Assembly: GCA_001303585.1 (NCBI GenBank)
Contig: LJTT01000021.1
Span: 1-45,222, forward strand
Direction of reading: 5' to 3'
Length of the DNA stretch: 45,222 nucleotides
Source: Betaproteobacteria bacterium SG8_41
GTDB lineage: Bacteria > Pseudomonadota > Gammaproteobacteria > Burkholderiales > SG8-41
Part shown: one piece after another, positions 9,887 to 18,200 of the stretch
Numbering within the stretch: the first letter of the stretch is position 1
How the letters are laid out: every line of letters starts with the position of its first letter
Position numbers and translations under genes: made by a program
Notes under the pieces: model-generated
What the model was told of the DNA's origin: nothing
The model's database searches: none
The model's input: only the letters and a program-made list of their open reading frames with translations

Positions 9887-9981
9887 TGGCGGAAGAGAGT
9901 GGGAGTCGAACCCACGAAGGACCGCCAGCGGCCCCTACCGGGTTTGAAGTCCGGCCGCCCCACCGGGGGCGATTCCCTTCC
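9887..9981 (-). tRNA. selC: tRNA-Sec (UCA anticodon), selenocysteine tRNA
   Basis: The minus strand folds as a 95-nt tRNA-Sec. It has an 8-bp acceptor stem (GGAAGGGA with TCTCTTCC), a 6-bp D stem (CGCCCC/GGGGCG) with a 4-nt CGGT loop, and anticodon loop CTTCAAA (UCA at 9947-9945). A long variable arm (GGGCCG-CTGG-CGGTCC) and a 5-bp T stem GTGGG/CCCAC follow, then discriminator G and an encoded CCA. The 8+5 acceptor/T geometry, long D stem and UCA anticodon are diagnostic of bacterial tRNA-Sec and match the E. coli layout. One oddity is that the last anticodon-stem pair is A-C (CCGGA with CCCGG). The tRNA is serylated by SerRS, converted by SelA and delivered to UGA by SelB, both encoded just beyond. 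Confidence 0.97.
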
Positions 9982-10006
9982 GTTGCATGCGCTTTCGGCG
10001 AACGTG

Positions 10007-10083
10007 CATCGTAATTCGAAAATCGTGAATCGTAAATCGTGAATCGAAAATCGAGAATCGAGAATCGAGAATCGAGAATCGTG
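10007..10083. repeat. Heptamer array AATCGNN, 11 units
   Basis: Eleven consecutive 7-mers from 10007, nine of them starting AATCG: AATCGTG, AATCGTA, AATCGTG, AATCGAA, four of AATCGAG, AATCGTG. It lies between tRNA-Sec and the thioredoxin-reductase-like gene. No inverted second arm is obvious, so this is a one-armed version of the element seen elsewhere. Confidence 0.85.
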
Positions 10084-10184: not shown

Positions 10185-11099
10185 CTACTTGAGCCGGGTG
10201 AGCGCGCTGGCGACGGCAGTCTCGGCTTCCTTGACCGCGTCGGTCAGCAGTCCCGAGTAGCCGGCCCGCACCGCGCCGGCAGCCCACACGCCGTCAAGCG
10301 CGGTTTTCAGGGACCCGTCGGTAAGGACGGCACCGTTGGCGTCGCGCGCGATCGCGGCCGGGAGGTACTCGCTGTTGGGCGCGAGCCCAATGTACGCGAA
10401 AAAACCGGCGCACGGAATCTCCGAGCGCGTGCCGTCCGCCGCGTTACGAACGCGGACTTTCTCGACGCACTGTCCGCCGGTGATCTCCTCGGCGACCGTA
10501 TTCCATTGCACGGCAATGCGATCGCTCGCGTTCACCCGGTCCACGAAGTGACGGCGAGCGCGGAAACCCGGGCCACGGTGCAGGAGATGCACCTTGCGGC
10601 AGAAGCGGGCCAGCACCAGCGCCTCCTGCAGCGCCGAATCCCCGCCGCCAACCACCACGACCTCCTCGTCCTTGAACATCGGGCCGTCGCAGTCGGCGCA
10701 TTGCGACACCCCGCGGTGGTCGAACTCGGCCTCGCCCGGAATACCAAGCCGCTTCAACCGCGCGCCGGAGGCGACGATGACTGCGCGGGCCAGGTGCGTC
10801 GTGCCCTCGGTGCGCACTTGTAGCAAGGCGCCGTCTGCGGCGATGCCCACCACCCGCTCGTTGATGCTCTGCACGCCTGCCTCGGCGTTCTCCTGCATCA
10901 GAGTGGACGCGAGCTCGACGCCCGATGCGTGCTCGGTTGCCGGCGAGCCCTCGAGCTCGTTGATATTGATCACCAGTCCGCCGAAGAGCTCCGCTTCGCA
11001 GGATGCGACGCTACGGCCTTGACGCGCCGCGCGGCATGCCGCGGTGAGTCCGGTGATGCCTTCTCCGATCACGACGACGTCGTACGTCTTATCAGTCAT
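10185..11099 (-). CDS. Thioredoxin-reductase-like FAD/NAD(P)-dependent disulfide oxidoreductase
   Basis: 304 residues with the thioredoxin reductase layout: FAD motif GEGITG near residue 12, redox-active Cys134-Ala-Asp-Cys137 (in SQCADCDGP), the NAD(P)-binding VVVGGGDSALQEALVLA, and a C-terminal FAD-contact region ending GVWAAGAVRAGYSGLLTDAV. The first glycine motif lacks the usual GPAG, and the NADPH site reads HRGPGFRARR instead of the more common HRRxxFRA, so it is not a textbook TrxB. It lies between selB and tRNA-Sec, all on the minus strand. It could supply electrons to a Sec-containing redox protein such as the glutaredoxin-like product at 16055-16825. That partnership is inference from position only. 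Confidence 0.88.
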   Translation of the reverse strand: MTDKTYDVVVIGEGITGLTAACRAARQGRSVASCEAELFGGLVININELEGSPATEHASGVELASTLMQENAEAGVQSINERVVGIAADGALLQVRTEGTTHLARAVIVASGARLKRLGIPGEAEFDHRGVSQCADCDGPMFKDEEVVVVGGGDSALQEALVLARFCRKVHLLHRGPGFRARRHFVDRVNASDRIAVQWNTVAEEITGGQCVEKVRVRNAADGTRSEIPCAGFFAYIGLAPNSEYLPAAIARDANGAVLTDGSLKTALDGVWAAGAVRAGYSGLLTDAVKEAETAVASALTRLK

Positions 11100-11309: not shown

Positions 11310-11349
11310 ATCTGCGTTTATCTGCGTTTATCTGCGTTTGTCTGCGGTT
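11310..11349. repeat. Decamer array ATCTGCGTTT, 4 units, overlapping the selB 3' end
   Basis: ATCTGCGTTT three times (11310, 11320, 11330) plus GTCTGCGGTT. The selB stop (TAA at 11330-11328) lies inside it, so the last SelB residues (about TADKRR) are translated repeat. Such TCTGCG repeats occur between genes in many bacterial genomes (general knowledge). Translated, they give peptides of the NADKRR type. Confidence 0.85.
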
Positions 11350-13304
11350 GGATTGCTTTGGCTCTTTGCCGGCAGTTTGAGCGGCTCGGCGGGACCCAGG
11401 ACCGCAGCGTAATCCTTGCGCATCTTGCGCGCGTCGCCCACGCGCTGCGTGATGGCAAGCGTGTCGAGAAACTCCAGGATTTCGATCGCAAGGCCGCGCC
11501 CAACGCCGGTTGCGTCGCGATACTGCGCGGCCGTGAAAGTGCCGCCGGCGCTTTTCTGCGCGAGGGCCTGCGCGGTCGCGGCAAGCGAGGCGACAGTGCT
11601 TCGCAGGTAGAAACGGTCGGGTTTGAGGCGCATGATCTCGCCCGTCCGGCTCTTGCGGTGGAGGAAGTCCTTGAGCGCTGTTTCCTTCAGCTTGAGCTTG
11701 AGCGCCAGTTCGGGGATCGGCGGCGCGTTCGCCCCGCCGGCCTGCAACGCCGGCTGCAATGCCTGCCACATCCTTTCGTCCTCGGGATTCGCGGTGGCGT
11801 CGTGCCCGGGCAGGCGGGCGACAGTCCCGTTGATCTGGAGCTGGCGCTCGTCGGCCAGCCCCCGCGCTATCGCCTGAAAGACCTCCAGCGGGAGCTTGGG
11901 CGCGAGCTCGGCTCGCAGCGCAGAGAGCTCCATGCCAACTGCCTGTGGCTGGGTGCGGTGAAACTCGCGCACGCGGGCGGGTATTCGCGCGCGCAGCTCG
12001 TCGCGCAGCTTGGTCGGGACGCCGATGCGGGCCTCCTTGCCGAGCGCCACGATGCCGGCGTCGGCATAGATCTGTGCCGCACGCTCCGGCTTGAGGTTGA
12101 ACGCGCGCTCGAAGCGCGCCAGGTCCACGCCTTGCGGCTGGCTCTTCAGCAGCTCCGCGAGCACGGTCTCTGCCGGGCCCGCGTCAAGGGCGGCCAGCTC
12201 GGCATTGCGCGCCGCGGCCGAGCGGCGCCCGGCGCGCACGAACGGATCGATGATCACGCCGCCGCCAAGGGTGCGGCGAGCGGATTGATCGCGCAGGATG
12301 AATCGATCGCCGTGGAGCGCGCCGACGGATTTGTCGAGCACGAGCTGCGCGAGGCCCGTCGTTCCCGGGGCGATGGTGCCGCCTCCCGGAATCGCAATTC
12401 GAGCCGTCACGTCGGCGGTCGCGAGGTGCACATGCAGCGGCGTCCAGTGCTCGAGCGGGTGCGTCTCGGCTGCAAGCACAGTGACGCGGGCGTCAAACCG
12501 CTGCGTGGGTGAGTGAATCGCTTCGTGCAGGACCCAGTCGCCTCGCGCAACCGTCTCGAGGTCGGCCCCGGTCAGGTTGAGCGCACAGCGCTGTCCGGCC
12601 TGGGCGCGCTCGGCCGCGGCGCCCCGGATCTGAATGCTGCGGACGCGCACCGGCGTTCCCCTGGGCGAGATGACGAACCGGTCGCCCGGAGCGGCAGTCC
12701 CGTTGAAGACCGTGCCGGTAACAACTGTCCCGCTGCCTGCGACGATGAACGCCCGGTCGATCGCCAGTCTGAAGTGCTGTCCCTCCGCCGAGCGTGCAGA
12801 CTGCGCATCGGCTGCGGCGACAAGCGCCCGGCGCAGGTCTTCGACGCCGGTGCCGCTGACGGCCGAAACGGCCATCACGGGTGCGCGATCGAGGCGGGTG
12901 CCGGCCAGCAGCGCCTTGACGTCCGCGGCGACCTGAGCGACGCGCTCCGGCGCAACGCGGTCCACTTTGGTGACCGCCGCGATTCCGTGGCGGATGTCGA
13001 GAAGGTCGAGGATATTGAGGTGCTCGACGGTCTGCGGCATGACGCCGTCGTCGGCGGCGACGACAAGCAGCGCGAAGTCGATGCCGCACACGCCTGCCAG
13101 CATGTTGCGGATGAAGCGCTCGTGCCCGGGGACGTCCACGAATCCCACCACGTTGCCGCTCGGGAGCGGCCAGTAGGCGAAGCCCAGGTCAATGGAGATG
13201 CCGCGCGCCTTTTCCTCGGGCAGGCGATCGGTGTCCACGCCCGTTAGCGTCCGGACGAGCAGGGTCTTGCCGTGGTCGATGTGTCCCGCGGTTGCGACGA
13301 TCAT
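11328..13304 (-). CDS. selB: Selenocysteine-specific elongation factor SelB
   Basis: 658 residues. The N-terminal GTPase domain has GHIDHGKT (residues 7-14), DVPGHERFI and TKVD. EF-Tu-like beta-barrels follow ([14 protein letters not shown]). A long C-terminal half made of winged-helix repeats binds the SECIS hairpin. SelB carries Sec-tRNA-Sec to in-frame UGA codons. A longer reading frame exists, but its first 24 codons are repeat sequence, so ATG 13304 ([14 protein letters not shown]) is chosen. It lies 64 bp after selA in the same direction, with a heptamer element in the gap. The C-terminal few residues are encoded by the ATCTGCGTTT repeat. Confidence 0.97.
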
Positions 13305-13315
13305 GTTCGAGCTGC

Positions 13316-13383
13316 GTGAATGGTGAGTGGTGAATGGTGAATGGATGTAACCCGGCCCTTTCCATTCACTATTCACTATTCAC
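13316..13383. repeat. Inverted-arm heptamer element GTGAATG / CTATTCA in the selA-selB gap
   Basis: Left arm: GTGAATG, GTGAGTG, GTGAATG, GTGAATG in 7-bp register (13316-13343). Right arm: CCATTCA, CTATTCA, CTATTCA (13362-13382). The 18-nt centre is short. The selA TAG stop (13371-13369) and its last codons (VNSE) are inside the right arm. Confidence 0.85.
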
Positions 13384-14805
13384 GCCTTTGGCCTCCAGGT
13401 CCAGATGCTTCAGTTGCTCCACGAACTCCTGTTCATGCTCCAAACAGCGGAGATCCATGATGAAGGTGCCCTCGCGCACGCGCCCGATCACGGGAACGGG
13501 CAGGGCGCGAAACGCCGCCGCGATCTCCGCCGCCGCGGCACTGCGCCGCTTCCCCGGCACGCTCACCGCGATGCCGCAGCTCGCGATGAGGTCCACAGGC
13601 AACGAACCGCTGCCGATCTGGCTTTTCAGCTCGACAATCGCAGTGTCGGCCGCATCCCCGAGCGCCGCCTGCACGGCCGGCAGCAGCCGTCGCGCCTGCG
13701 ACTCGATGTCGGGCAGCGGCCGGGTCAGCGAACGCAGCGTCGGCAACGAATTGCGCAGCCGCTGCGGATCCGAATAGAGCTTGAGAACGGCCTCGAGGGC
13801 GGCCAGGGTCATCTTGTCGACGCGGAGCGCGCGTTTCATCGGATTTCTGCGCATGCGCTCGATCAGCTCCGCGCGGCCCGCGATGAGGCCCGCCTGCGGG
13901 CCACCGAGCAGCTTGTCGCCGCTGAAGGTGACGACGTCGGCGCCGGCTTCGAGCGCATCGCGCGGCGTGGGCTCATGCGGCAGGCCGTATTCCTCGAGAT
14001 CGACCAGCATGCCGCTGCCGAGATCCACGATGAAGGGCAGGCCGTGTTTGTGCGCCAGCGCCGCAAGATCGGGCTCGGCGACCGCCGCGGTGAAGCCCTG
14101 GATGGCGTAATTGCTGGTGTGCACCTTCATGAGCGCGGCAGTGCGAGGTGAAATGGCGCTGGCGTAGTCCCTGAGATGGGTGCGATTGGTCGTGCCGATC
14201 TCGCGCAGCCTGCAACCGGCCCGGGCCATGATGTCCGGAATTCGGAATGCGCCGCCGATCTCGATCAACTCGCCGCGCGAGACCGGCACTTCCTTCCTCG
14301 GGGCGAGCGTATTGAGCGCGAGGTAGACCGCGGCGGCGTTGTTGTTGACCACGAGCGCGGCCTCCGCGCCCGTGAGTTTCGTGAGCCAGCGCTCGATATG
14401 CCGGTCCCGCTCCCCGCGATCGCCGCCGCCAAGATCGAACTCGAGATTCACGGGCCGCGTCATCGCACGCGCGACCGCGTCGGCAGCCTCCTGCGGCATG
14501 AGCGCGCGCCCGAGATTGGTGTGAAGCACTGTGCCGGTCAGATTGAACACCGGCCGCAGCGATGGGCGCGTCTCTTGCGCGAGCCGCGCGGCGCAGGCCC
14601 GCACGAACAAAGCTTCGTCGAAGTGAGAGCTGTCGTGGGCGTTGCTGCGGGAGAGCGCCGCGCGCAGGGCCGTGATCTCGGCGCGTGCGGCTTCGGTTAC
14701 CAGAGGGCGGCCGTAGCGCGAGACGAGGCTGCCGATTGCGTCGAGCCTTAGCAGCCGGTCAAGAGAGGGGATCGCGCGACGCGCGGACGGTCCGCGGTTC
14801 AGCAT
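13369..14805 (-). CDS. selA: L-seryl-tRNA(Sec) selenium transferase SelA
   Basis: 478 residues, the usual SelA length. It is a PLP enzyme that converts Ser-tRNA-Sec to Sec-tRNA-Sec using selenophosphate. Visible features are the N-terminal domain (SLDRLLRLDAIGSLVSRYGR), NLTGTVLHTNLGRALM around residue 88, VVNNNAAAVYLALNTLA, IVDLGSGMLVDL, and the PLP lysine in FSGDKLLGGPQAG (Lys298). It is the first gene of a minus-strand order selA-selB-(thioredoxin-reductase-like)-selC. The last residues are translated heptamer repeat, so the conserved SelA C-terminus has been slightly altered. selD is not in the window. Confidence 0.97.
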   Translation of the reverse strand: MLNRGPSARRAIPSLDRLLRLDAIGSLVSRYGRPLVTEAARAEITALRAALSRSNAHDSSHFDEALFVRACAARLAQETRPSLRPVFNLTGTVLHTNLGRALMPQEAADAVARAMTRPVNLEFDLGGGDRGERDRHIERWLTKLTGAEAALVVNNNAAAVYLALNTLAPRKEVPVSRGELIEIGGAFRIPDIMARAGCRLREIGTTNRTHLRDYASAISPRTAALMKVHTSNYAIQGFTAAVAEPDLAALAHKHGLPFIVDLGSGMLVDLEEYGLPHEPTPRDALEAGADVVTFSGDKLLGGPQAGLIAGRAELIERMRRNPMKRALRVDKMTLAALEAVLKLYSDPQRLRNSLPTLRSLTRPLPDIESQARRLLPAVQAALGDAADTAIVELKSQIGSGSLPVDLIASCGIAVSVPGKRRSAAAAEIAAAFRALPVPVIGRVREGTFIMDLRCLEHEQEFVEQLKHLDLEAKGVNSE

Positions 14806-14986: not shown

Positions 14987-15976
14987 ATGAGGGCCATGAC
15001 GACAGGGGCACTGGGCCTGGCCGCTCTGCTGGCCTGTGCCGGTGCCCACGCGCAGGAAGCCGGGCCGTTGCGGAGCTATCCGGCGAAGCCGATTCGCTTC
15101 ATCTGCCCTTATAACCCCGGTGGCGCGGGCGACATCTTCAGCCGCACCATCGCCCGCAAGCTGACCGAGTTCTTGGGGCGCAGCGTCGTGGTCGACAATC
15201 GCGCCGGTGCGAACGGCGGAATCGGCACGGCGCTTGCGGCAAAAGCGATGCCCGACGGCTATACGCTGCTGATGGGCAACAGCGGCCCGTTGACGGTCAA
15301 TCCCAACCTTTACCGCGGTGTCCCGTACGATCCGGTGCGGGACTTTCAGCCAGTGACCCAGGGCACGGTCTATTGGTACGTGCTGGTCGCGCTTTCTGCT
15401 GCGCCGTTCAAGTCTCTCGACGATCTGGTCGCCGCGCTCAAATCAAAGCAGGGCACCCTCACGTATGGCTCGACCGGAATCGGCGGCGGCAATCATCTTG
15501 CGGCTGAGCTGTTCAATCTCATGACCGGGGGCAAGGCGATACACGTGCCGTACACGGGCAGCGCTGTGGCGCTGGCATCGCTGCTCGGCGGGCAGACGAA
15601 TTACATGTTCGACACGGTGGTAACGGCGGTGCCGCACATCAGGGCGGGGCGGCTGCGGGCGTTCGCCGTGACGGCGACGAAGCGCTCGCGGGCTCTTCCC
15701 GACGTTCCCACTCTGGACCAGCTGGGCCTGAAAGGCTACGACATCACGCAATGGCAGGCAGTGGTCGCGCCGGCGGGAACGCCGCGGCCGATCGTCGATG
15801 CGCTCCACCGCGCCGTCGTGCGAGCGCTCCGGTCGCCCGACGTGATCGAGCGCATCGGCCCGCGCGCGGGAAACGAGCTCGTCGGCAACACGCCGGACGA
15901 GTTCTCGCGGGTGATCAAGAACGATCTCGCCAAGTACGCGAAGATCATCAAGGCGGCGGGCATTGTGGTGCCGTAA
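14987..15976 (+). CDS. Bug/TctC-family periplasmic binding protein
   Basis: 329 residues. The signal peptide is cleaved near residue 22 (AGAHA). The ligand loop PYNPGGAGD is a variant of PFSPGGGTD. VVVDNRAGANGG and HVPYTGS follow at normal spacing. The ATG at 14987 is preceded by GGGAGG at an 8-nt distance, an unusually good ribosome-binding site for this window. It is divergent from selA and converges on the Sec-glutaredoxin gene, with no transporter membrane genes. The relation to selenium metabolism is probably only positional. Confidence 0.93.
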   Translation: MRAMTTGALGLAALLACAGAHAQEAGPLRSYPAKPIRFICPYNPGGAGDIFSRTIARKLTEFLGRSVVVDNRAGANGGIGTALAAKAMPDGYTLLMGNSGPLTVNPNLYRGVPYDPVRDFQPVTQGTVYWYVLVALSAAPFKSLDDLVAALKSKQGTLTYGSTGIGGGNHLAAELFNLMTGGKAIHVPYTGSAVALASLLGGQTNYMFDTVVTAVPHIRAGRLRAFAVTATKRSRALPDVPTLDQLGLKGYDITQWQAVVAPAGTPRPIVDALHRAVVRALRSPDVIERIGPRAGNELVGNTPDEFSRVIKNDLAKYAKIIKAAGIVVP

Positions 15977-16058
15977 CCAGGTGACCAAGAGACTAGGTGA
16001 GAACGTGTGACCCGGTGACCGACTGCCTGGTCACATAGTTACCCGGTCAATTCGTCAC
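15975..16058. repeat. Inverted-arm element GTGACC / GGTCAC between convergent genes
   Basis: It begins at the TAA of the Bug gene and ends at the TGA of the Sec-glutaredoxin gene. The left side has GTGACCA, GTGACCC and GGTGACC. The right side has GGTCACA, ACCCGGTCA and CGTCACTC. Units are diverged but the 7-bp register is mostly kept. Confidence 0.6.
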
Positions 16059-16825
16059 TCAAAGAGGCGTTCTGGCAACGGCAGTCCGGCGAGATCTTCG
16101 GGCGTGAGACGACCCTCCGGCTCGATGCTGTAGCGCTCGAGCAGGTGGACCAGCTGCCGTGAATGCTGTGCCGAGTGCCAGGTACAGCGCTCAAAGAGCT
16201 GGTGCATCGTCTGCTGGCCGTAATAGGTCTTGAGTTTCTGCTGGCAGGTGCGGTCAGCGAGGCCGCCCCACCACTTCTGAAGCTTTCCGATCACCGCGTC
16301 GCCGTATGCGACGAACTCCGCGCCATCCAGAAAAGTGCCATCCTCCGGCGGAACCGTGGCGAGACTGTTACTGTATTCGACGCCGTCGACGACCGTCTCG
16401 AGGTAGGCCTCGGCGATGCGGAAGACGTGGTGTCCCAAGAGGCGGATCGAGCGGTCGCGGTTCTCGATGACGCGGTCCTTGAGGCGCTCCTTTGGCAGTT
16501 GCCGCAGGTAGCGCTGCGAAGCGCGCAGCACCGCTATCCATTTCTCGAGCAGTTTTTCGGGCGGCAGCGGCGTGTGCCCGGTGCCCGCAAGGCCGACGAA
16601 TTCCGCTACGTCTTCCAGGTTCTGGCCGAACACGAACTGCTCGCCTTTGGCGATGACCGGCAGGTTGCGCACGCCGTACGCGAGCAGCCGCTCGCGTCCG
16701 CCGGCGTCGTTAAGCACGTCGACCGCGACGAAGTCGATGCCCTTTTTCGAAAGAAACTCTTTCGCTCGGAGGCAGCTGCTTCACCCGGGCTGGGTGAAGA
16801 GCGTGAAGCGCTCGGCCGATTCCAT
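16055..16825 (-). CDS. Selenoprotein: Sec-containing glutaredoxin domain fused to DinB-like domain (in-frame UGA at 16783-16781)
   Basis: Ordinary translation stops at codon 15. Reading UGA as selenocysteine gives 256 residues. The N-terminus is a glutaredoxin fold: FTLFTQPG-Sec15-SSC18, RAKEFLSKKGIDFVAVDV, the cis-proline loop VRNLPVI (Pro56), and FGQNLEDVAEFVGL. Sec sits where glutaredoxins carry the attacking cysteine of CxxC. After about residue 85 comes a DinB/YfiT-like four-helix domain with the expected metal-type histidines (His132/133, His217, His221 in TWHSAQHSRQL). A SECIS-like hairpin follows the UGA, and selA, selB and selC lie 1.2 to 7 kb away. ATG 16825 is the only upstream ATG in frame, and its ribosome-binding site is weak. 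Likely role: thiol or peroxide chemistry with a thiol-dependent transferase-like partner domain; the substrate is unknown. Automated annotation would start at 16717 and lose the redox motif. Confidence 0.92.
16748..16783 (-). promoter_or_regulatory. bSECIS-like element: UGA codon and downstream hairpin
   Basis: On the minus strand UGA (16783-16781) is followed after 16 nt by CGAAAGA-GTT-TCTTTCG (16764-16748). This is a perfect 7-bp stem, or 6 bp with a 5-nt AGTTT loop. The loop starts 22 nt after UGA and has G at its second position. This meets the known bacterial SECIS pattern: apical loop about 16-37 nt after UGA, with a G in its first two bases. Confidence 0.8.
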
Positions 16826-16913: not shown

Positions 16914-17036
16914 GTTCAATGTTCCCGGTTCAATGTTCCGAGTTCAAAGTTCAATGTTGGGAGCTTCGTAAACCGCTGCCGTCCGACTTTGAACTTTGAA
17001 CTTTGAACTTTGAACTTTGAACTTTGAACTTTGAAC
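16914..17036. repeat. Inverted-arm heptamer element GTTCAAT / TTTGAAC with conserved core
   Basis: Left arm: seven 7-mers starting GTTC or GTTG (16914-16962), imperfect. Right arm: seven perfect TTTGAAC copies (16988-17036). The core is 16961-16987 (GAGCTTCGTAA, then ACCGCTGCCGTCCGAC). The perfect arm lies 9 bp from the mnmA stop. It separates mnmA from the Sec-glutaredoxin gene. Confidence 0.93.
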
Positions 17037-17045
17037 CTGAGACCG

Positions 17046-18200
17046 TTATCCCTCCGCCCTGAATAGTTCAGTACCGGGCGGACACTCTCGCGGGCGGTCG
17101 TCCTCGGCCTTGGGCCGCTCTACCGACTCGATGATGCCGCCGCCCAGGCACACCTGGCTCTCGTAGACGACGACCGACTGGCCGGGCGTGATCGCCCACT
17201 GCGGTTCGGCGAAATCGACCGTGCACTGTGCAGCGCTCACGCTGTCGATCGTGCAAGGCGCGTCTTTCTGACGATAGCGAGTCTTCGCGCTGTAGACCCA
17301 GTTGCAGTGCGGCATGAACCCGCTCACCCAGCTGAGATCGGTTGCCTTGAGGCGGCTGTGGTAGAGCGCGGGATGTTCCCGCCCCTGCACCACGATCAGG
17401 CGGTTGTGCTCGAGATCCTTGGCCGCGACGTACCATGGCTCGCCATCGCCATCGCGGATGCCGCCGATGCCCAGGCCTTGCCGCTGGCCGATGGTGTAGA
17501 ACATGAGGCCCTCATGCCGGCCGACGAGACGTCCTTCGAGCGTGTGGATCTCGCCCGGATTCGGCAGAACGTAGCGGCCGAGGAACTCGCGAAATGGGCG
17601 CTCGCCGATGAAACAGATGCCGGTCGAGTCCTTCTTGTCGTGAACCGGCAGCCCCTCGCGCCGCGCGAGCTCGCGCACGTCGCGCTTGTGGAGTGCGCCC
17701 ACGGGAAACAATGTCCGGGCGAGCTGCGTCTGGTTGAGCCGGTAGAGAAAGTAACTCTGATCCTTGGTGCCGTCCTCGGCTTTGAGGAGCTGGAAGAGGC
17801 CGTCGGTTTCCCGCGCCTGTGCATAGTGGCCGGTTGCAATGCAGTCCGCGCCGAGCCCAATTGCGTGGTCCAGGAAAGCCTTGAACTTGATCTCTGCGTT
17901 GCAGAGCACGTCCGGGTTAGGCGTGCGGCCGGCGCGATATTCCCGCAGGAAATCGTTGAATACGCGGTCTTTGTATTCGGCGGAGAAATTGACGACATCG
18001 ATCTCGATGCCGATCCGCTCCGCTACCGCCACGGCATCGACCAGGTCCTCGCGCGCCGGGCAATATTCGTCGGTGTCGTCGTCCTCCCAGTTCTTCATGA
18101 ACAGGCCCGACACCTTATAGCCCTGTTGCTTGAGCAGCAGGGCGGCGACGGACGAATCAACGCCGCCCGACATGCCAACGATAACGCGTTTTCCTGTCAT
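17046..18200 (-). CDS. mnmA: tRNA-specific 2-thiouridylase MnmA
   Basis: 384 residues. The PP-loop ATPase motif is GMSGGVDSS (residues 9-17). Catalytic cysteines are visible as Cys100 (in [12 protein letters not shown]) and Cys196 (in [13 protein letters not shown]), matching the pair known from E. coli MnmA. It transfers sulfur to U34 of tRNA-Lys, -Glu and -Gln in the cytoplasm. The ATG at 18200 gives the conserved N-terminus [14 protein letters not shown]. In Sec-using organisms the same wobble uridine can be converted further to 2-selenouridine by SelU, but no selU is seen here. The NUDIX gene ends 168 bp upstream in the same direction. Confidence 0.97.

Follow-up and report, generated by a model that had tools for sequence, protein, structure and literature searches.

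A predicted glutaredoxin-DinB selenoprotein encoded beside the selenocysteine genes of a Burkholderiales bacterium

Results

The window analysed here is the whole 45,222-nucleotide stretch of contig LJTT01000021.1 from Betaproteobacteria bacterium SG8_41, and its main subject is a minus-strand gene predicted to encode a selenoprotein in which a glutaredoxin (Grx)/NrdH-like redoxin precedes a DinB domain (Table 1). This Grx-DinB gene runs from an ATG (16825-16823) to a TGA stop (16057-16055) and is otherwise open apart from the TGA at codon 15, which occupies the first position of the PG-U-xxC glutaredoxin motif. Calling of open reading frames (ORFs) under translation table 11 yields 16717-16055 with a GTG start, a product of 220 residues (aa) from which residue 15 is excluded. 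An earlier interpretation made from the letters of the window (hereafter the sequence-only reading) had placed an in-frame UGA on the first cysteine (Cys) position of a Grx active site, with the frame open on both sides and standard annotation starting at GTG 16717, and had counted selA, selB and the selenocysteine (Sec) tRNA gene within 7 kb. All of this was borne out: the ATG-to-stop frame reads PG-U-SSC and comprises 256 residues with a single internal TGA, tRNA-Sec lies ∼6.85 kb from the UGA, and selA and selB, both profile matches above cut-off, lie closer.

Table 1. Features of the window discussed in the text.
Feature	Coordinates	Strand	Basis or remark
Predicted selenoprotein gene, redoxin (Grx/NrdH-like) + DinB, 256 aa, UGA at codon 15	16058..16825	-	translation, profile search, AlphaFold model
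In-frame TGA (predicted Sec15) in PG-U-SSC	16781..16783	-	translation
Predicted bacterial Sec insertion sequence (bSECIS) core hairpin CGAAAGA-GUU-UCUUUCG	16748..16764	-	17 nt, begins 16 nt past UGA
Glutaredoxin/NrdH-like domain, residues 8-65; Cys18 at 16774-16772, presumed cis-Pro56 at 16660-16658	16631..16804	-	PF00462
DinB/YfiT four-helix domain, ∼residues 85-241; H133 16429-16427, H217 16177-16175, H221 16165-16163	16103..16573	-	profile, model
mnmA-like tRNA 2-thiouridylase, conserved upstream neighbour	17046..18200	-	name by recognition
selA, Sec synthase	13369..14805	-	TIGR00474, 584.8 bits, above cut-off
selB, Sec elongation factor	11328..13376	-	TIGR00475, 429.3 bits, above cut-off
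Thioredoxin-reductase (TrxR)-like flavoprotein, conserved CADC	10185..11099	-	TIGR01292, 249 bits, below 343 cut-off
tRNA-Sec, anticodon TCA	9887..9983	-	Rfam, 77 bits

A first survey of 60 genomes, including that of SG8_41 itself, gave 70 match rows in 40 genomes. After seven C-terminal fragments and six weak glutaredoxin-only matches had been set aside, 57 rows including the 5' part were left, 56 of which held exactly one TGA and one, from genome G051, none; when 37 copies were read directly, the TGA stood at the first position of PG-U-xxC in 36, and the G051 copy read PG-C-TSC. The best 80 of 208 loci from named records, all distinct in sequence, carried TGA (68), TGC (eight) or TGT (four) at codon 15. 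The titles of these records are mostly Betaproteobacteria or Burkholderiales, with some Deltaproteobacteria, Binatia and Alphaproteobacteria, and most of them are metagenome bins that may contain foreign contigs. At the level of the order, 130 of 399 genomes had a match and 36 a full-length fusion, with TGA in 28 genomes and no internal stop in eight, all eight being Cys forms (TGC in seven, TGT in one); in the other 94 genomes, excluded from the Sec/Cys count, the matches were all weaker (1.4e-11 at best) and for the most part confined to the redoxin. A scan of the phylum (398 genomes, E ≤ 1e-15) returned matches in the SG8_41 genome and in G558 only. The search for Cys homologues of a Sec-x-x-Cys glutaredoxin, as proposed in the sequence-only reading, thus recovered the full fusion with TGC or TGT, both among the named loci and as every stop-free fusion of the order. 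Homologues with neither Cys nor Sec at the site, which that reading had named as counter-evidence, were looked for and none was found in the 106 loci read (95 distinct sequences).

The same reading had marked 16783-16740 for a bSECIS prediction. A hairpin is present there, with synonymous-site conservation in the TGA forms only, although the conserved core is narrower (16764-16748). Folding of the window copy gave a minimum free energy of −18.3 kcal/mol over 54 nt (z −2.09; 7 of 200 dinucleotide shuffles were as good), and with mononucleotide shuffles as the background 37 loci, including one Cys copy, had a mean z of −1.4, with some values around 0. As raw stability is weak evidence, the case for the hairpin rests on its conservation. 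The pattern CGAAAGAGTNTCTTTCG was detected at 56 sites in 36 of the 60 genomes and at none in the reversed control; all 56 lie inside the Grx-DinB family, and the Cys copy was the only one of the 57 family matches without it. In the named loci the exact 17-mer was found in 66 of 68 TGA forms and in none of the 12 Cys forms, and the two TGA exceptions keep the pairing, with both partners of the basal pair changed in L144 and a G-U pair formed in L165. None of the eight stop-free fusions of the order has the exact hairpin, and among the 95 distinct sequences it is present in 76 of the 79 Sec forms and absent from all 16 Cys forms. Of 67 Sec genes, whose third positions are 75% G/C, 66-67 share a single codon for each of K22, E23, F24, L25 and S26, whereas the mean major-codon share of 38 other conserved residues in Sec genes is 0.61 (maximum 0.88), and the K22-L25 codons vary in 11 Cys genes. 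Loci L146, L182 and L186, having no start or no stop, were excluded from this codon comparison; the Sec and Cys genes compared are related, and the hairpin and codon counts are not independent events.

Two variants were observed in addition. In the G558 copy (L106) another hairpin, GAGACUC-AAG-GAGUUUC, folds in the same stretch, the SECIS letters being replaced and Sec kept. A divergent clade (L047:9257-10018, L048:2534-3298 and L049:9848-10612), 26-28% identical, has kept Sec and a near-identical hairpin.

PF00462 matched residues 8-65 (3.5e-13, 50 bits, cut-off 22.9), with the U-x-x-C in place, and DinB_2 (PF12867) matched residues 126-225 (8.2e-5; 23.5 bits with the 256-aa and 24.2 with the 220-aa product). 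Among homologues, DinB_2 scored 31.0 bits in L046, 28.7 in L180 and 24.9 in L183, and gave no match in L047. The AlphaFold model (predicted local distance difference test, pLDDT, 96) comprises a redoxin and a DinB/YfiT bundle, the latter matching DinB/YfiT structures, and C18, P56, H133, H217 and H221 are invariant in 44 sequences, in keeping with the DinB fold with three histidines that the sequence-only reading had described. The DinB domain is predicted to bind a metal through these histidines, and the whole product to be a selenium-dependent thiol transferase/reductase composed of a redoxin and a metal-binding DinB domain.

selA was above cut-off in 108 of the 399 genomes of the order, including all 28 TGA-form and two of the eight Cys-form genomes (Fisher p 1.4e-5). 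The corresponding check of named loci covered 20 of 80 (all 12 Cys and eight of 68 Sec), which may overlap the 399-genome set and were therefore not added to it; selA was above cut-off in 8/8 Sec and 6/12 Cys genomes, and one further Cys genome gave a partial match of 197 bits. Sec forms were thus found only alongside the Sec machinery, and Cys forms with or without it. In the SG8_41 genome selD lies elsewhere and has its own UGA at HGGG-U-GCK; on contig C69 (L187) this Sec-SelD adjoins a frame resembling MnmH/SelU (by recognition), which makes it likely that Sec and selenouridine are both in use in the genome. A search for FdhA with an internal TGA gave no match in this genome (92% complete) and matches in at least 7 of the 36 genomes of its family.

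The neighbourhood was compared over 82 distinct Sec sites found by the hairpin, a set hence without Cys forms and L106. At 42 of them selA and/or selB lie downstream on the same strand, and these 42 are accompanied by a TrxR-like gene in 28 cases, tRNA-Sec in 20 and mnmA upstream in 33; when at least 7 kb of downstream sequence was available (n = 14), the TrxR-like gene was present in 12 and tRNA-Sec in 11. The TrxR-like proteins conserve CADC and GGGD-x-ALQEA, and this flavoprotein is likely the electron donor. A trxR near the Cys copy of L183 was considered as a functional link and dropped, its product being 30% identical to the TrxR-like protein of the window and probably an ordinary TrxB. 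With one member of each cluster scanned against Pfam, gshA-gshB were located ∼3.5 kb from the Grx-DinB gene in L150, L153 and L157, and ggt ∼90 nt downstream of it in L168 and L179.

Between the Grx-DinB gene and selA, on the opposite strand (14987-15976, +), lies a gene for a TTT-type periplasmic receptor (by recognition); of 94 loci examined, 38 contain a member of its cluster. Heptamer tandem repeats surround mnmA, selA-selB and tRNA-Sec (16986-17036, 13316-13344, 13364-13383 and 10016-10081), the first comprising 7.3 perfect copies of ACTTTGA. In other loci a gene of the UGSC family (PF24696, from a scan of one member) was found near the Grx-DinB gene (L042:10451-12340, L134:6853-8646 and L147:6825-8597, as well as L034, L113, L115, L117, L138 and L143). 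It is split by a TGA at GA-U-GAC or GC-U-GSC in 9/9 loci read, with the GC-rich hairpin GCCCGCCGTGTTGCGGGC directly after. This gene, which was not seen in the window, likely encodes a further selenoprotein, one of a known kind.

Discussion

Because the UGA occurs together with the hairpin and the Sec machinery, and because homologues have Cys in place of Sec, we consider it very probable that the gene at 16825-16058 is a selenoprotein gene, and likely that the hairpin at 16764-16748 assists in the reading of its UGA codon 15 as Sec. The opposing explanation, that the UGA is an ordinary stop and the true product a headless DinB protein of 220 aa started at GTG 16717, the upstream part being a decayed or assembly-damaged relic, has the table-11 ORF on its side, and the best 120 of 2,676 database entries resemble that product. 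We give it hardly any credence, since the same TGA recurs in 68/80 named loci and just 16/67 Sec genes have a start-type codon at residue 37, where the annotated ORF begins. Purifying selection is equal before and after the UGA (uncorrected pN/pS, the non-synonymous to synonymous ratio, against the window copy 0.47 for residues 2-14 and 0.47 for residues 37-256, and 0.29 for residues 16-36 without the hairpin codons; 66 pairs), the hairpin codons are locked solely alongside TGA, and uninterrupted Cys homologues exist.

Several observations weigh against parts of the selenoprotein interpretation and of the function attached to it. Cys forms occur despite Sec capability, in the two order genomes and six named-locus genomes with selA, and a selB search adds G136, so that 3/8 Cys-form genomes of the order are Sec-capable by selB. 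Conversely, 80 of the 108 selA-positive genomes of the order are without a Sec fusion; three of the 36 genomes of the SG8_41 family (G004, G008 and G021; 72-92% complete) have no fusion match, among them G004 with selA and G021 with a strong tRNA-Sec. L106, from a one-contig genome outside the order in which selB is present, has the TGA without the consensus hairpin. The DinB_2 score of the window copy is 1.3 bits below the Pfam cut-off of 24.8. As to the metal site, two of the histidines (H217 and H221) are missing from L048 and L049 (26% identical) and one (H217) from L047, and part of the family may therefore have lost it. As to the electron donor, the TrxR-like gene was not found at 14 of the 42 sel-linked sites, some of them cut by contig ends, and in L045, L173, L176 and L178 tRNA-Sec lies close behind selB with no TrxR-like gene between. 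Finally, the gsh and ggt links are few, come from related genomes and are only hints as to the thiol.

How the protein might work can be outlined from its parts. A metal bound by the three DinB histidines would activate a thiol of low molecular weight, probably glutathione; the mixed disulfide or thiol adduct so formed would be reduced or transferred by the adjoining U-x-x-C redoxin domain; and NADPH would in turn reduce the selenenylsulfide via the TrxR-like protein encoded between selB and tRNA-Sec. This route, from NADPH over the flavoprotein and the Sec-redoxin to the DinB thiol adduct, is suggested by the NrdH-like character of the redoxin, the linkage of a TrxR-like gene and the histidines of the DinB domain, and glutathione is the likeliest thiol because it is the usual small thiol of Gram-negative bacteria and gshA-gshB and ggt lie near a few copies. 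Taken as a whole the scheme is tentative, and we rate it as possible rather than probable.

Other functions for the fusion were weighed against this scheme. One is that of a Sec-dependent deglutathionylase acting on conjugates of electrophiles or xenobiotics, in which DinB would only bind the substrate and the redoxin remove the glutathione. It would suit a superfamily that includes thiol transferases, and some copies lie near CoA-transferase, MmgE/PrpD and TTT receptor genes (the last two by recognition) or near gshA-gshB or ggt; the neighbours of copies away from sel genes differ between genomes, however, and we regard this function as unlikely, if worth keeping in mind. Less credible is a selenoprotein serving selenium metabolism itself, its Sec-redoxin reducing selenodiglutathione or handing selenium to SelD. 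Such a role would account for the location beside selA, selB, tRNA-Sec and mnmA, as seen in the sel and mnmA counts over the 82 Sec sites; the Sec-SelD beside an MnmH/SelU-like frame in the same genome fits it, and the glutathione and thioredoxin systems are among the possible selenium carriers to SelD in the consulted part of a recent review (PMC13188914). Yet Cys forms persist without detected selA in 6/8 genomes of the order (one with selB), selA gave no match or a weak one in 5/12 named Cys genomes and only a partial one in 1/12, and neither sel genes nor mnmA lie on the available flanking DNA of 34 of the 82 Sec sites, although this DNA extends only a short way at some of them. That the fusion is no enzyme but a metal chaperone or sensor under redox control would be compatible with an invariant three-His site and a redox pair in one confident predicted model, but we find it improbable: no regulator or metal transporter is prominent among the commonest neighbour clusters, few of which were scanned for family, and Sec in proteins is usually catalytic.

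A protein search with a threshold of E ≤ 0.001 returned 2,676 matches. The best 120 were examined, and those beyond need not all be fusions. Judged by length and coverage, none of these 120 reaches residue 15; the four longest are of 238 aa and start at residue 19, and most others are of 219-227 aa. No description of a glutaredoxin-DinB selenoprotein was found in the literature, supplements and non-open papers aside. In the consulted part of a 2026 review, a table of 119 families includes Grx and several fusions and no DinB (PMC13188914), and the word DinB does not occur in the consulted portions of the main texts of PMC13188914, PMC12013277, PMC9312934 and PMC5330540. On these grounds, and in agreement with the sequence-only reading, the fusion is regarded as new, as a combination; Sec-glutaredoxins as such are already known, the review listing a Sec-containing glutaredoxin (PF00462, UxxC; Kim et al., 2011, its ref. 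85) as plain Grx in the part consulted (PMC13188914).

The present protein shares with that glutaredoxin Sec at the first position of the C-x-x-C, but here the redoxin, which is NrdH-like, makes up the first third of a protein with two domains and comes with a near-invariant SECIS of its own. The best PDB sequence match of the redoxin was 7c10 ('Glutaredoxin', 2.9e-9; titled 'Dithiol cGrx1'), which we take to be a Cys-replaced clostridial Sec-Grx. UXX-star selenoproteins and the HUGP/GUXX-star fusion have a common glutaredoxin-like character, yet the window protein scored 36.9, 23.3, 20.0 and 16.9 bits against cut-offs of 66, 100, 72 and 325 (NF041212, NF041211, NF041114 and NF045501, respectively). 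With the DinB/YfiT or S-transferase-like (STL) superfamily, which comprises BstA, mycothiol S-transferase and EgtB and includes thiol transferases, the bundle has in common the four-helix fold, three histidines and the H-x3-H spacing (here H217/H221; H160/H164 in BstA); what differs is the redoxin domain preceding the bundle, and the Sec inventory names no DinB protein in the part consulted (PMC13188914). Glutathione transferases likewise join a thioredoxin-fold N-domain to an all-helical C-domain, but whole-length Foldseek matches are poor (4hz2, template modelling (TM) score 0.33, root mean square deviation 11.6) and the helical domain matches DinB. That Sec on the redoxin and a thiol at the three-His DinB metal site form one active site, and thus a selenoenzyme class of its own with a glutathione transferase-like plan made from other parts, which in one Burkholderiales family would largely replace formate dehydrogenase as keeper of the Sec code, is an extension that we regard as doubtful.

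If read as proposed, the gene adds a selenoprotein family whose database members, among the best 120 of 2,676, lack the active-site residue, and its near-invariant SECIS provides an exact sequence tag for the family in metagenomes. The Cys forms in the named isolates Sheuella amnicola, Acidovorax sp. MR-S7 and Paraburkholderia piptadeniae make the role of Sec directly testable. As far as the consulted part of a 2006 survey goes, the Sec-decoding members of the Alphaproteobacteria, Betaproteobacteria and Pseudomonadales carry selA-selB-selC, and the adjoining fdhA is their only selenoprotein gene (PMC1794560). The order selA-selB-tRNA-Sec is the same here, but the Grx-DinB gene takes the neighbour position instead of fdhA. 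A redox protein, and not FdhA, would be at the centre of this betaproteobacterial sel locus, and Sec use in these Burkholderiales is therefore likely wider than FdhA-based surveys state.
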